DNA from: Carnobacterium funditum DSM 5970
Lineage (GTDB): Bacteria > Bacillota > Bacilli > Lactobacillales > Carnobacteriaceae
DNA length: 64,000 nucleotides
Assembly (NCBI RefSeq): GCF_000744185.1
Contig: NZ_JQLL01000001.1
Span: 1,240,001-1,304,000 of the forward strand
Direction of reading: 5' to 3'
Numbering within the stretch: position 1 is the stretch's first letter; the number at the start of each line of letters is the position of its first letter. Below the pieces are notes generated by a model. It ran no database searches. It saw only the letters and a list, made by a program, of their open reading frames with translations, and was not told the DNA's origin. This document shows, in pieces, positions 5,342 through 40,390 of this stretch. The position numbers and the translations under genes are program-made.

Positions 5342-5678
5342 TTATATTTCTCTCCTTTGAGTTTCAATAATTTTTACCTAGGACATCATATCCATGGCTT
5401 CATTCTAGTTGCATTTTGCTTAAGATGCAATGTTTTTCCATCAATTCTTACTTAATTTTTTTATAAAAAATTCTGATTCAACTTTATACTTTATTCTTAT
5501 CAATGAGCTGCAGACTCATTCTAATTCTAATTGTGTACAAAGCCTACCGTAAATCATCATTAAGTTGACTTGCGCAAATCAACATTTCAAAAAATCAGCA
5601 TAAGTTTATTCGATTTCTTCATTGCATCAAATCTTTACCTGTTATCAATCTACATTCTTAAGTTAAGCTGTGCATGAT
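5342..5678 (-). other. 337-bp gpmI-eno intergenic region
   Basis: No gene is visible. It holds a sigma-A promoter for eno at 5402-5430 (separate entry). A 20-bp near-palindrome at 5564-5583 (GTTGA and TCAAC arms around TTGCGCAA, one mismatched pair) lies about 100 bases past gpmI. A smaller AATGAG/CTCATT hairpin is at 5502-5520. Neither hairpin is followed by a T-run, so I do not call a gpmI terminator. Confidence 0.6.
5402..5430 (-). promoter_or_regulatory. Sigma-A promoter of eno
   Basis: On the minus strand TTGCAT (5430-5425) and TAGAAT (5407-5402) are 17 bases apart, about 60 bases upstream of the eno ATG. The -35 TTGCAT and an ATGCAA 10 bases downstream form an inverted repeat across the spacer, a possible operator. 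Confidence 0.6.
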
Positions 5679-7207
5679 TTACTTTTGAATTAAACTTTCC
5701 CCAGTCATTTCTACGGGTTTTTCAAGATTTAAAAGATCTAGCATTGTTGGAGCAATATCTGCTAAACGTCCGCCCTCACGTAATGCAACTCCTTTTTTGG
5801 TTACAATTACAGGTACAGGAACAGTTGTATGAGCGGTATGTGGTTTTCCTTCTGGGGTAAGCATTGTGTCTGCGTTACCGTGGTCAGCAAAAATAATTGC
5901 ATAACCGTCTTTAGCAACAATTGCATCAACAATACGTCCTAGATTTTCGTCCACTGCTTCAATCGCTTTAATCGTTGGTTCTAACATACCTGAGTGACCA
6001 ACCATATCTGGATTAGCAAGGTTCAAGATGATAGCATCTGATTGATCTGATTCAATATCAGCTACTAAGGCATCCGTCACTTCGTAAGCACTCATTTCAG
6101 GTTTTAAATCATACGTTTCTACTTTTGGAGAAGGAATCAAAATACGATTTTCTCCTGGGAATTCTTCGTTACGACCACCATTCATAAAGAATGTTACATG
6201 TGGGTATTTTTCTGTCTCTGCAATACGCAATTGCTTCAAACCATTGTCAGAAAGAACTTCTCCAATCACATTTTTCATCGGGATTGGTGCAAATGCAACT
6301 TCAGCTTTAATGCTTGGGTTGTATAAAGTCATTGTAACAAATTTAACGTTTTGAGCTCTTGTGCCACGTTCAAAGTGTTCCCACTCATCGTCTGTAAAAG
6401 CATTAGACAATTGGATAGCGCGGTCTGGTCGGAAATTGAAAAAGATAATAGCATCATCACTTTTTATAGTTGCTACAGGCTTGCCATCTTTTTCAATCAC
6501 TGTCGGAAGAACAAACTCGTCAAATTTCTCTGATGCATAGCTTGTTTGAACAGCTTCCATCGCACTAGTTGCTTTAACACCTTCGCCATGAGCGATAGCA
6601 TTGTAAGCTTTTTCGACACGTTCCCAGCGCTTATCTCTATCCATTGCGTAAAAACGTCCAGAAACCGTTGCAATTTCGCCTGCTCCAATTTCTTTCATCG
6701 CTTTTTCTAATTGTTCAACATAGCCAATACCTGAATTAGGCGCTACATCGCGTCCGTCAAGAAAGGCATGAACGTAAATATTGCGAACACCTTTTTCTTT
6801 TGCTGTTTTTATTAAAGAAATCAAGTGGTTAATGTGACTATGCACACCACCGTCAGACAATAATCCAAATAAATGTAAATCTGATTGATTTTCAATCGTA
6901 TGATTCATTGCTCCACTTAAAACTGGATTTACTTGGAAATCGCCATCTTCGATTGCTTTATCAATTCGAGTTAAACTTTGATAAACAATGCGTCCAGCAC
7001 CAATATTGGTATGTCCAACTTCGGAATTCCCCATTTGGCCTGCTGGAAGGCCTACGTCTAGACCGGAAGCTTTCAACTGACTGTGAGGATAAATACCCAT
7101 GTAGCGGTCAAAATTAGGCTTTTTAGCTTGTGCTACCGCATTACCCATGACTTCATTACGCCATCCAAGTCCATCAAGAATAATGATGGCTACTGGTGAT
7201 TTTTTCA

Positions 7208-10318: not shown

Positions 10319-11356
10319 TTAAAGGGTTATCCCTCTTAAAATCTGATTAGCGGCACCCTCATCTGTGATTAACCACGTCTGAGCGGGTACTTTCTTCATA
10401 TGTGCTTCAATTGCTTTTGCTTTGGATTTTCCGCCTGCAACCGCGATTACGCTTGGTATTCGCGCAAGATCTTTTGATTGCATACCAATACGTGGAATTT
10501 TATAAACGACTTCTCCAGTTTGGTTATAGAATTCTCCGAAAGCTTCTCCAACTGCTGCTTTGTCTTTAATCAGAGCTAGAACTTCTTCGTTCATACCTCT
10601 GCGCTTTGCCATGTGTGTTGCATCTCCAATACTATAGAGAACACAATTAGCTTGTTCTACCAGATTCAGCGTTTTTTTGATTTCTGGCTCTTGTAAGAGG
10701 GGCTTATACGTTTCTTCGCTGACTTGTTCTGGTACATACAGAACGCGGTTCTTCCCACCAGTTCTCTTGGCCATCTGTGCACTAACAGCGTTAGCTTGAA
10801 TATCCACTGATTCTCCAAGTCCACCTCTAGCTGGTACAAATATTAATTCTCGGTGATGAGCAAGACTTTCATCCATATGATTTGCAACTTCAGCCATTGT
10901 CGTACCACCCATAACCGCAATGATATTAGTTCCTTCGGGCAACAATACTTTCAAAGAATCCATTGTTGCTCGTCCTAATTCATCTTGAACTTTGGACTGC
11001 TCCTCAACATTCCCAGAAACAATTACGCAATGTTCTATTTTAAAATAAGCGGCTAATTGATTTTCTTTCTCTCGCATTCCTAATAATTGACCCATTATTA
11101 CATCTAAATCATGGTAAACAATTTCTCCATTTGCAGTTAATTGCATCCCTACTTTAGACGTTCTAATCAAGCGTTGTTTTCTTAATGAATCTACTTCTGT
11201 TCTTAGTACACGCTCAGTAATACCCATCTTGTCGGCGAGTACTCGACGTCCAACAGGACCCAACAAGTAAACATTACGCAAAATTTGATATCGTCTTCTC
11301 AGCGTATCCATAATGTCTGGTGTTACTTTTTCGATAATAGACAATACATCCTGCAT
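10319..11356 (-). CDS. cggR: Central glycolytic genes regulator CggR (SorC family)
   Basis: Represses the gap operon; in Bacillus subtilis fructose-1,6-bisphosphate lowers its DNA binding. The 345-residue protein has an N-terminal winged helix (about 20-90, with VLADKMGITERVLRTEVDSLRKQ as the recognition region) and a C-terminal SorC-type sugar-phosphate-binding domain. It is the first gene of the glycolytic operon, so it is probably autoregulated through its own leader. Confidence 0.96.
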   Translation of the reverse strand: MQDVLSIIEKVTPDIMDTLRRRYQILRNVYLLGPVGRRVLADKMGITERVLRTEVDSLRKQRLIRTSKVGMQLTANGEIVYHDLDVIMGQLLGMREKENQLAAYFKIEHCVIVSGNVEEQSKVQDELGRATMDSLKVLLPEGTNIIAVMGGTTMAEVANHMDESLAHHRELIFVPARGGLGESVDIQANAVSAQMAKRTGGKNRVLYVPEQVSEETYKPLLQEPEIKKTLNLVEQANCVLYSIGDATHMAKRRGMNEEVLALIKDKAAVGEAFGEFYNQTGEVVYKIPRIGMQSKDLARIPSVIAVAGGKSKAKAIEAHMKKVPAQTWLITDEGAANQILRGITL

Positions 11357-11558: not shown

Positions 11559-11620
11559 GCTTAAAGGGGTAAACCAACAAATATTATCCGCATTTTTTTA
11601 GCTTCCTTAAAGAATAAAAA

Positions 11621-11650
11621 ATAAAACCACTCAGTGTGAGTGGTTTTATT
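11621..11650 (-). terminator. Terminator after the heliorhodopsin gene
   Basis: ATAAAACCACTCA and TGAGTGGTTTTAT form a 13-bp stem with a 4-base loop. T-rich sequence flanks it on both strands. It lies 17 bases past the heliorhodopsin stop codon. Confidence 0.85.
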
Positions 11651-11666
11651 TTTTATTTTCGTTCCC

Positions 11667-12452
11667 TTATCCAGGCTGCATAACTCCTGCAAAAGCTAAC
11701 CAAGCTAACGCAGACTTAGCAACTAGACTTAAAATAATATAAGCACGTTCTCCATAAAGATAATTTTTCCATGGCCCAACCTTTTTATATTGTAAAATCA
11801 TGTTTACTGGAAACAGATTGAAGAAAACAAAATAGGTGCCTGCTAAAGCATATACAAACCAAGGAACTTCAGCTGGATCAGCATTTCCAAATGCGTATAA
11901 TAAAATAACTACCCATGGAACGAAACCAGCGATTGTTCCAAAAACAAACGACTTCCAATCTGTTGACTTTCTATAATAAGTCATTTCTTCCATCACTAAA
12001 CCGAATAGATTCATCATAGCATTAAGAACAAATATCAAAATAAGTGAACCGATATCGTATACACCAAACAACATCGCTATTAACATGATCATTAATGATG
12101 AACTAATCGCATATTCATACCATCTAAAGCGATTCATATTTCTTTCTAAATCTTTATTATATATTTTATTTCCCCACGGTGTCACAATAATAAAATGTGC
12201 TAATGCAGAAATAAATAAAAATAAAGAAACCATGATTCCAAATGGCGCATTAAAAATTTCTTTTTCTTCGGTTAACAACCGCATTTGAGTTGTATCAAAT
12301 GTTAGGAAATAAGATCGAATAGGAATTTCAAACTCAGCAATTCGATCAATAAAAATAGCAAATCCAAGCATTAAGCTTCCTTGAACTAAATGCAATAACC
12401 CCATGATGATATTAAATCTTTTTAACGATTTAAAATCTATTGCTTTGGCCAT
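11667..12452 (-). CDS. Heliorhodopsin (retinal-binding seven-helix membrane protein)
   Basis: A 261-residue protein with seven predicted membrane helices, recognised as a heliorhodopsin. Helix 3 reads RWYEYAISSSLMIMLIAM, with E113 at the position of the Schiff-base counterion (E107 in HeR 48C12). Helix 7 reads AYIILSLVAKSALAW, with K246 at the retinal lysine (K241). H21 in helix 1 and H86 in helix 2 match the conserved H23 and H80, and S242 matches S237. The family binds retinal, has an inverted topology (N-terminus inside) and a slow photocycle; most members do not pump ions, and the function is unsettled. The ATG at 12452 is chosen because GAGGAG lies 8 bases upstream, rather than a GTG three codons earlier. 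Terminators on both sides make it monocistronic. No carotenoid or retinal genes are in the window. Confidence 0.93.
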   Translation of the reverse strand: MAKAIDFKSLKRFNIIMGLLHLVQGSLMLGFAIFIDRIAEFEIPIRSYFLTFDTTQMRLLTEEKEIFNAPFGIMVSLFLFISALAHFIIVTPWGNKIYNKDLERNMNRFRWYEYAISSSLMIMLIAMLFGVYDIGSLILIFVLNAMMNLFGLVMEEMTYYRKSTDWKSFVFGTIAGFVPWVVILLYAFGNADPAEVPWFVYALAGTYFVFFNLFPVNMILQYKKVGPWKNYLYGERAYIILSLVAKSALAWLAFAGVMQPG

Positions 12453-12485
12453 TAAAATCACTCCTCATTTTTTTAGTTACACCAG

Positions 12486-12503: not shown

Positions 12504-12551
12504 CCAACCTGCTACTCATGTTGCTAGTGTATTATTATTGTACTCTTTTTT

Positions 12552-12600
12552 TATAAATAGTACTATTTATATCCTTCGATATTTAACTGTTTATATCCTT
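12552..12600 (-). promoter_or_regulatory. Heliorhodopsin upstream region: 20-bp palindrome and paired direct repeats
   Basis: TATAAATAGT and ACTATTTATA form a perfect 20-bp palindrome at 12552-12571. An 11-base word (AAGGATATAAA on the minus strand) occurs at 12566-12576 and again at 12590-12600, exactly 24 bases apart. Just downstream lies a possible -10 (TACAAT) with no good -35, as at activator-dependent promoters. The regulator is unknown. Confidence 0.5.
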
Positions 12601-12638: not shown

Positions 12639-12669
12639 AGACAGCAAAAGTCTTTAGCTCTTACTGTCT
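12639..12669 (-). terminator. Terminator after the DsbA-like gene
   Basis: The minus-strand AGACAGTAAGAG pairs with CTTTTGCTGTCT (two G-T pairs) and is followed by seven T. It lies just after the stop at 12683 and separates this gene from the heliorhodopsin gene. Confidence 0.8.
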
Positions 12670-12682
12670 GATCATTGTATAT

Positions 12683-13222
12683 TTATTCAACTGATTTTAA
12701 TTTATCCTCAATTAATGTTTGCAGTTCATCTACTGTAATGTGTTCATCAAAAATTTCTTCGCCAATGAAAACAGTCGGAACAAGCTCCACAATAGATCGG
12801 TTCGCTTCTTCAATGATTCCATTTATTTCTTTTTCATTGGTTTGTAACGCTATGTCTCGCTTATCTTCAGCATAAGCTGCAATTTCACCCAAGCTTTTTA
12901 AGCTACCCCATTCATCTTGATTTTCATAAAAATACTCAATTTCTGCTAAAGCTGCTTTAGGATTCGAATAATCTAAATAACGATGAATCACATTACCTTT
13001 CTCCAAATGTGGCGTTTCTTTATTGAAGTGTTTGATAACGCGTTGAACTTTTCCTTCTTCAACATATTTAGCTAAAAGTTCTTTTGAATCATCATGCCAT
13101 TTCTTACAGAAAGGACAACTCAAGTTAATAAATTCTATGACTTTTACAGGTGCTTTGGGATCCCCAATTTTTAATCCGTAAACGGTATCTACTTCACTTG
13201 CTTTTATTTTACTAATATCCAT
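12683..13222 (-). CDS. DsbA-like thioredoxin-fold thiol oxidoreductase, cytoplasmic
   Basis: A 179-residue DsbA/Thioredoxin_4-type protein. It has a CPFC active site (C36-C39) after the first strand, the usual alpha-helical insertion, and the cis-proline segment VPTVFIG near the C-terminus. There is no signal peptide or membrane anchor, so it should act in the cytoplasm on thiols or disulfides; the substrate is unknown. It has its own TATACT-type -10 upstream and its own terminator. It lies next to the heliorhodopsin gene in the same orientation but is not co-transcribed with it by this reading. Confidence 0.85.
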   Translation of the reverse strand: MDISKIKASEVDTVYGLKIGDPKAPVKVIEFINLSCPFCKKWHDDSKELLAKYVEEGKVQRVIKHFNKETPHLEKGNVIHRYLDYSNPKAALAEIEYFYENQDEWGSLKSLGEIAAYAEDKRDIALQTNEKEINGIIEEANRSIVELVPTVFIGEEIFDEHITVDELQTLIEDKLKSVE

Positions 13223-39308: not shown

Positions 39309-39796
39309 TTAATTATATGATTTGAATTCAATTTTGCTGTTTTCAAGATAGCGAATCCATTCACGACTATTAATCACATAATTTCGGATTCGTTCTAAAC
39401 ACCTAGAGGCTAAAAAATAACCTATTAAATCTATCCCTCTGTCTAGGTCTACTTTCGTTTCAATTTGAGGGATGCATTGTGTGCCTTTTACGTGAATAGT
39501 AGACTTCGCAATGCTACCAGCATAATTCCCCATCTATTCCAAGTCAACACATACTTTCATAACCGTTACAATCCTTCGTAAATGACTGGTTAAAGGTTAT
39601 TGTAAAGAGATTGATTCAAAGTCTTTCTTTTTAAATGCTAATTCTACTTCATTAATTTGATAATCATAATTGATAAGTTCTTATGCTAGCACTTTATCAT
39701 GGGTGATAAAAGATTTAACCGATTTGTACCTCGCTTCATTGACCATCATTCCCATTTTGAAAAATGATGATATCTTCAGCTTGATTCTTCTTCAAA
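39309..39796 (-). pseudogene. Decayed second phoU
   Basis: The minus strand holds phoU in pieces. One frame reads YKSVKSFITHDKVLA-stop-ELI, then ISLQ-stop-PLTSHLRRIVTVMK and VDLE-stop-MGNYAGSIAKSTIHVKG, each matching the intact phoU. At least three stops replace sense codons and there is a frameshift near the N-terminus. About 70 internal residues are missing before the C-terminal piece CLERIRNYVINSREWIRYLE. It is fused by deletion to the end of a decayed pstB. Confidence 0.88.
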
Positions 39797-40390
39797 CTTA
39801 TCTGATACACGTGAGGCTTGCTACATGTTATGCGTTACCCTAATATGGGTATAATCTTTTTTTAGTCCTATTACCAGTTCTTCAATCTTTGCTGTGAATA
39901 TTGGATTTAATGCACTCATCAGTTCATCCATCAATAACCATTCAGAATCTACAGCGAAAGCACGAGCGATACAAGTACGTTGTTTTTGCACTCCAGACAA
40001 AGAGGATGTCTTTTTTAAAATTATCTTTGACTCCTTCCCAGATAGCCACTACCGTGAGTTTTTTCCAACAATTCCATTTAACTATTGTTTGTTTTTGACA
40101 CCTTGAGTTCTCGGTCCCTATGCTATATTATCGGAAATACCCATAGGAAAAGGGTTAAGCTTTTGAAAAACCATCCCTAATCGTTTGCGTAAAAAAATGA
40201 CATCAGATTCTTTGGCATAAATACCCTCATCATCCTTTTTTATTTCTCCACTTATTGCAAAACCTTCAGTCACATCATTCATTTTAATTAGACTATTAAG
40301 CAATGTTGATTTTTCACATTTCCATTCGAGTATGGTTCTTTTATTCCACTATTTTATGTTCTTTAACATTAAGAATAAATTAGTTCGCTC
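39797..40390 (-). pseudogene. Decayed third pstB
   Basis: The minus strand keeps CEKSTLLNSLIKMND (Walker A region, Gly and Pro lost), LRKRLGMVFQKLNPFPMGISDNIA (Q-loop), [10 protein letters not shown] (signature) and QASRVSDK near the end, separated by stops and frameshifts. The normal C-terminal tail after SDK is missing and the sequence runs directly into the phoU remnant. It cannot make a working ATPase. Confidence 0.88.

Follow-up and report, generated by a model that had tools for sequence, protein, structure and literature searches.

The function of heliorhodopsins (HeRs) is still largely open. The member of the family from Trichococcus flocculiformis (TfHeR) has been purified and given a role in helping photolyase: TfHeR absorbs at 542 nm and binds photolyase weakly (Kd 22 ± 15 μM), the gain in repair is about 3-fold, as found with purified proteins and in E. 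coli, and the protein does not pump (PMC9769723). HeR groups with photolyase, DUF2238 and DUF2177 have already been described (PMC11109279), and elsewhere HeRs occur near two-component, redox and metabolic genes (PMC8612252).

The gene analysed here lies in a window of 64,000 nucleotides from a Carnobacterium genome (2.35 Mb in two contigs, rated 100% complete), in agreement with the fermentative Gram-positive host deduced in the initial annotation. Its product resembles TfHeR (locus L065) in family, in bacterial order and in sequence (57–58% identity), and both genomes encode a photolyase. TfHeR, however, is encoded near a class II photolyase gene and a DUF2238 gene, whereas the window HeR gene stands alone: the single photolyase match of its genome, of class I type, lies about 61 kb away (HeR at G000:C1:1251670-1252452, photolyase at 1190437), so that the two genes are not adjacent in the manner of TfHeR. 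The class labels refer to the nearest profiles (class I type for our photolyase, class II for that of Trichococcus), and both proteins score below the curated cut-offs of those models. The two HeRs also fall in different clades.

The gene and its main landmarks are, in window coordinates:

11667-12452, minus strand: heliorhodopsin coding sequence, 261 amino acids (open reading frame, profiles, alignment and model)
12450-12465, minus strand: ATG start (12452-12450) with AGGAG Shine-Dalgarno sequence (12465-12461), read from the sequence
12114-12116, minus strand: codon of Glu113, counterion (by arithmetic and alignment to E107 of 48C12)
11774-11776, minus strand: neighbourhood of the helix F-G loop, placed by position (by arithmetic; the Lys224 codon is 11781-11783)
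11715-11717, minus strand: codon of Lys246, Schiff-base lysine (by arithmetic and alignment to K241 of 48C12)

On the minus strand the reading frame runs from ATG at 12452 to a stop codon that ends at 11667; the ORF list opens it 9 nt further upstream, at GTG 12461. The ATG is the likelier start, because the GTG overlaps the AGGAG, and the AGG(A/G)GTG..ATGGC stretch is also present in two relatives. The heliorhodopsin identity proposed from the letters alone was confirmed by family HMM searches: the Pfam profile PF18761 matched residues 10-258 of 261 with 337 bits (E 7e-101; cut-off 26.7), and the NCBI equivalog model NF038020 gave 313.9 bits (cut-off 100). The Pfam search found no second family over its cut-off in the protein, which differs from the HeRs fused to MORN or zinc-finger modules in having no such extra N-terminal domain. 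Among PDB sequences, six heliorhodopsins matched with E 3e-49 or better (best 4e-61); the remaining matches, two beta-lactamases, reached only E 0.35.

The residues singled out in the initial annotation also proved to be where it had put them. E113, K246, H21 and H86 align with E107, K241, H23 and H80 of 48C12, and are invariant in all 54 rows of an alignment of the window protein with 53 of the best 80 loci, which are 54–95% identical to it (L006, which contains a stop, was taken out, and the other broken copies were not chosen). E113 is the helix 3 glutamate, and the SxxxK of helix 7 corresponds to S242-K246. An AlphaFold2 model built on this alignment (mean pLDDT 93.2, pTM 0.89) supports the predicted seven-helix heliorhodopsin fold, with paired strands (42-53 and 58-70) in the AB loop. 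The ten best Foldseek matches of the model are heliorhodopsin chains (TM 0.82-0.89 on the query; best solved match TaHeR), and type-1 rhodopsins follow with E 0.013 or worse. TaHeR (PDB 6is6, 7u55) and 48C12 (PDB 6su3, 6uh3) thus share fold and key residues with the window HeR; they differ in host and are about 43% identical to it. Judged by profiles, alignment and predicted structure, the window gene is an intact, true heliorhodopsin. Compared with one relative (locus L002; one pair), dN is 0.029 and dS 1.00, and the gene is under purifying selection (dN/dS about 0.03).

The loops on the N-terminal side carry 14 K+R and 6 D+E, those on the opposite side 4 K+R and 10 D+E. We favour, on these charges, the inverted topology with a cytoplasmic N terminus. 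Proton transport is known from some heliorhodopsins (PMC9448325), which raises the question of whether the window HeR might be a proton transporter or channel like viral V2HeR3. According to that paper, the TaHeR counterparts of V2HeR3 E191 and of the V2HeR3 tryptophan in TM6 are I199 and F203, respectively. These helix 6 positions (E191/W195) are Tyr207 and Phe211 in the window HeR, so that the V2HeR3 residues are absent; TfHeR, in turn, does not pump (PMC9769723). We prefer a sensor over a transporter because of these two substitutions at the V2HeR3 gate positions and the non-pumping TfHeR: a transporter or channel is very improbable, and it is highly probable that the window HeR moves no ions.

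The initial annotation had also set the gene between glycolysis and clpP. The neighbourhood matches this description but for a DsbA-like gene, which separates HeR from clpP. The flanking features are:

10319-11356, minus strand: cggR-type regulator gene, downstream neighbour (ORF list and gene order)
11614-11656, strand not assigned: terminator-like hairpin of 20 pairs after HeR (hairpin scan)
12537-12542, minus strand: TACAAT, candidate -10 box (reading by eye; absent from the promoter-scan list)
12557-12598, minus strand: two GGATATAAAYAGT copies upstream of HeR, possible operator (motif search)
12639-12669, minus strand: terminator-like hairpin of 12 pairs between the DsbA-like gene and HeR (hairpin scan)
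12683-13222, minus strand: DsbA-like gene (Thioredoxin_4), upstream neighbour, found in genomes both with and without HeR (profile and gene order)

The name cggR is a tentative assignment, made from the sequence. With hairpins on both sides (the scan found 5 terminator-like sites against 1.3 expected), the HeR gene looks monocistronic. The two GGATATAAAYAGT copies, 24 bp apart, lie in an AT-rich block upstream of HeR, and the second enters an AT-rich dyad; block and copies are partly conserved in two relatives. The pair, whose pattern was derived from one of its two copies, is a possible binding site for a regulator. A promoter element common to HeR and photolyase was rejected: the 11-base ATATAAAYAGT is absent from L159-L163, where a search for a 9-base core gave one copy in L160 and one in L162. 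Elsewhere in the window, short ORFs at 39309-40303 adjoin phosphate-transport-like genes and are possibly a degenerate gene; one of them (40118-40303) looks by eye like part of an ABC ATPase.

Gene order might suggest that HeR functions together with the glycolysis regulator or with the product of the DsbA-like gene. All three HeR-positive species of the genus have these genes side by side on one strand, and redox genes lie near other HeRs (PMC8612252). Terminator-like hairpins, however, lie between them, the DsbA-like gene is present in 18 of 18 genomes of the family regardless of HeR, and none of the nine window neighbours searched adjoins HeR in two genomes of genus g3, of the same family. 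Two HeR-negative congeners (G004 and G006) keep the order clpP, dsbA-like, cggR, gapA without HeR. Because the hairpins flank HeR and these congeners share the flanking genes, the glycolysis and clpP neighbours seem irrelevant to HeR, and we consider a partnership with glycolysis, clpP or the DsbA-like gene extremely unlikely.

Other genomes place HeR among different genes. One genome of genus g3 (L114, G008) has a UvsE gene about 650 bp upstream of HeR and in the same orientation; in the other HeR-positive genome of g3 (L115, G011), an ORF of that UvsE cluster adjoins HeR. Trichococcus loci have photolyase and DUF2238 ORFs near HeR (one of each profiled), and five loci (L003, L035, L043, L078 and L118; L003 profiled) have a DUF2177 cluster close to HeR.

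A rhodopsin in a lactic acid bacterium had been called unexpected, a judgement that does not hold: 33 of 395 sampled Lactobacillales, in 10 genera, pass the PF18761 cut-off, an NCBI equivalog model names the family, and a role for TfHeR has been published (PMC9769723). HeR is now known to be fairly common in Lactobacillales, and the window gene is an ordinary member of its family. That such proteins have no settled function, as was also said, is still fair for the window HeR. PF18761 passed its cut-off in 5 of 18 genomes of the Carnobacterium family and in 2 of 398 genomes of a class-wide sample (the window genome and G628), and matched none of 14 control genomes. A search of the openly licensed literature for heliorhodopsin together with Carnobacterium, or with 'lactic acid bacteria', returned no report.

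The closest named relative is a Carnobacterium metagenome-assembled genome (MAG; L002), whose HeR is 95% identical and in which nine neighbouring genes including HeR keep their order at 77–98% identity. It is apparently the same genome as G007, and the HeR-positive species of the genus are the window genome, G005 and G007. A gain of HeR by one branch of Carnobacterium is the best explanation, and species with and without the gene at one site, between dsbA-like and cggR, make the genus a natural test system. In trees of HeR, a 14-row clade (support 100/99) unites the window gene with the HeRs of Alkalibacterium, two Clostridia-type MAGs, G063 and two f4 genera. An 18-row clade (100/100) includes those of genus g3 (G008 and G011), which sit there beside Trichococcus and Enterococcus aquimarinus. 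The first tree included a very long branch, the second HeR of G233; with that row omitted, the 14-row clade persisted (100/99) and the deeper forks were open. Since the HeRs of Carnobacterium and g3 sit in different clades, HeR would most simply have entered the family twice. The Alkalibacterium HeRs (L004, L008, L010 and L012) are 73–77% identical to the window HeR, and the Alkalibacterium genomes searched (g20) also have a photolyase; they differ in gene neighbours, in genus and in family (f6 in the tool's grouping).

A 10.5-kb Lactococcus petauri plasmid typed as mobilizable (L254, NZ_CP141705.1) carries HeR at 5592-6368, beside an IS6 transposase, together with MobC and a relaxase. This HeR, from a lactic acid bacterium like the window HeR, is 63% identical to it over 97% and has a tree position without support; its location on the plasmid speaks for a transfer of HeR genes among lactic acid bacteria. 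A Chloroflexota plasmid also carries HeR (54% identical to the window HeR), and a phage collection gave no match. The gene also seems to be lost occasionally, unless the following are sequencing errors: in-frame stops interrupt HeR in the Alkalibacterium genomes G049 and G111 (loci L006, L014, L094 and L110, two per genome), and G202 has only a 36-residue fragment (G202:C48:6913-7020). G233 has, besides a Trichococcus-type HeR, a second, divergent one that is 36% identical to the window protein (L121, G233:C16).

Photolyase (PF00875) passed its cut-off in 103 of the 395 Lactobacillales, comprising 32 of the 33 HeR-positive and 71 of the 362 HeR-negative genomes (Fisher p 9e-20, uncorrected for relatedness; the HeR and PF00875 samples were taken as identical, as their sizes and handles agree). 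By genus, in a hand tally, photolyase occurs in 9 of 10 HeR-positive and 21 of 70 HeR-negative genera (p 5e-4). Within Carnobacterium the counts are 3/3 against 0/2, within g3 2/2 against 0/4, and in the family 5/5 against 4/13 (the four being G001-G003 and G016). G138 is the sole HeR-positive genome of the 33 without photolyase. HeR changes nine times along a SecA tree with 79 genomes, and in nine independent pairs photolyase moves with HeR in a mean of 5.1, against it in 0, and shows no difference in 3.9. This test, corrected for relatedness, gave a median p of 0.0625 (range 0.031-0.25), which does not reach 0.05. HeR is thus rarely found without photolyase in Lactobacillales, and the link after correction is only suggestive. 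Shared habitat, which is uncontrolled in these counts, could be the cause. The class-wide sample had no power for a replication, with 2 of 398 genomes HeR-positive, both of which have photolyase.

The co-occurrence spans both photolyase classes and needs no gene linkage. As an order-wide observation it is new and a modest correlation; the literature on both proteins, which we covered in part, yielded no prior report at the genome level, and one may have been published. Were it to survive a full sample and a control for habitat, the published operon-based link would extend to unlinked genes and to both photolyase classes. The photolyases of Carnobacterium group with that of G372 (81% identity across 298 residues), the g3 photolyases group with that of G228, and the Carnobacterium (window genome) and g3 enzymes are 62–63% identical. 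This suggests that each genus gained photolyase separately, with forks of 84/98 and 98/52, neither fully supported, in a tree of 18 rows that includes long branches. The surroundings of photolyase differ between the window genome (L159) and G005 (L160), whose alignment is limited to the gene itself and about 55 bp upstream of it; G005 and G007 (L160 and L161) have their photolyase flank in common.

The window genome gave no match to PF15461 (Blh-type), PF03055 (RPE65-type) or PF00494 (squalene/phytoene synthase). As positive controls, PF03055 matched 2 and PF00494 matched 7 of 14 control genomes; PF15461 matched none, which leaves its sensitivity unproven. A cell that lacks phytoene synthase cannot follow the known route to beta-carotene. 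A near full-length HeR match is present in 32 of the 45 genomes searched; PF15461 and PF03055 each pass their cut-offs in 0 of these 32, and PF00494 in 13. A divergent Blh in relatives was considered for the sub-cut-off PF15461 matches in nine of the 45 genomes and set aside: the three that we read (L145, L146 and L148) look by eye like what we take to be YidC-type insertases.

Since none of the retinal-synthesis families searched matched its genome, the cell probably obtains the retinal for HeR from outside. Retinal uptake by rhodopsin hosts that lack blh has been published, as has fast retinal binding by HeR (PMC9296517; see also PMC11561045). The same absence of a known retinal route would fit a retinal-free or relict opsin, with another job or decaying where the habitat lacks retinal, as would the broken copies in the two Alkalibacterium genomes and G202. 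The strong constraint on the window gene (dN/dS about 0.03), a retinal pocket intact including Lys246, and the published HeR hosts without a retinal pathway and fast uptake by HeR (PMC9296517) argue against a relict, which we regard as improbable. We regard retinal binding by the window HeR, in contrast, as very highly probable.

We tentatively propose, at somewhat less than even likelihood, that HeR is a retinal-scavenging light sensor functionally tied to the repair of light damage. As a sensor, HeR would be slow and non-pumping, with a cytoplasmic N terminus, and would bind retinal scavenged from the surroundings because the cell has no known route to make it. In light, its cytoplasmic face would help photoreactivation by the cell's own DNA photolyase, either by contacting the enzyme directly or via a short signalling step, in line with the report on the Trichococcus HeR. 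We draw the link to repair because of the co-occurrence in genomes and the published TfHeR work (PMC9769723). The UvsE gene upstream of HeR in L114 also speaks in its favour. Against it stand the unlinked genes, a corrected test that falls short of 0.05, the exception of G138 and the four HeR-negative genomes of the family with photolyase.

An equally likely reading is that retinal-bound HeR is a general photosensory switch, signalling to unlinked targets (oxidative stress, metabolism) with no special tie to photolyase, both being kept in sun-exposed species. Elsewhere, HeRs have two-component, redox and metabolic genes nearby (PMC8612252), the window HeR is unlinked to photolyase, and co-occurrence with both photolyase classes is what shared habitat predicts. 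The ORFs read in the window, however, include no signalling gene beside HeR, and in two genera the HeR-negative congeners also lack photolyase, though habitat could cause that too.

If the sensor is tied to repair, direct contact between HeR and photolyase is still unlikely. The published TfHeR-photolyase interface need not apply, because our photolyase is of class I type and that of Trichococcus class II. The TfHeR contact residue K227 corresponds to K224 in the window HeR and is kept in 50 of 54 HeRs, so that it is hardly informative; the counterpart of R162 is R161, in a loop with alignment gaps (R in 13 of 54 rows, and H even in Trichococcus ilyis), and the contact residue E97 is K96 in the window HeR.

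A broader version of the repair-tied reading, which we consider rather unlikely, is that in lactic acid bacteria HeR is a mobile, retinal-scavenging photorepair accessory, acquired repeatedly alongside a photolyase, whichever its class, and cooperating with that photolyase even where the genes are unlinked. If true, cells would gate or boost DNA repair by visible light via a chromophore that they never make themselves. With no known retinal pathway and a single photolyase match, the window genome makes both the photolyase-helper idea and retinal scavenging directly testable.

Genus g3 shows a further pattern. Its HeR-negative genomes G009, G010, G012 and G013 have a strong PF00494 match (E 1e-70 or better) and no photolyase, and its HeR-positive genomes G008 and G011 have a weak PF00494 match only (about 1e-24) and a photolyase. 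This raises the question of whether a carotenoid, on the one hand, and HeR with photolyase, on the other, are alternative means of light protection.
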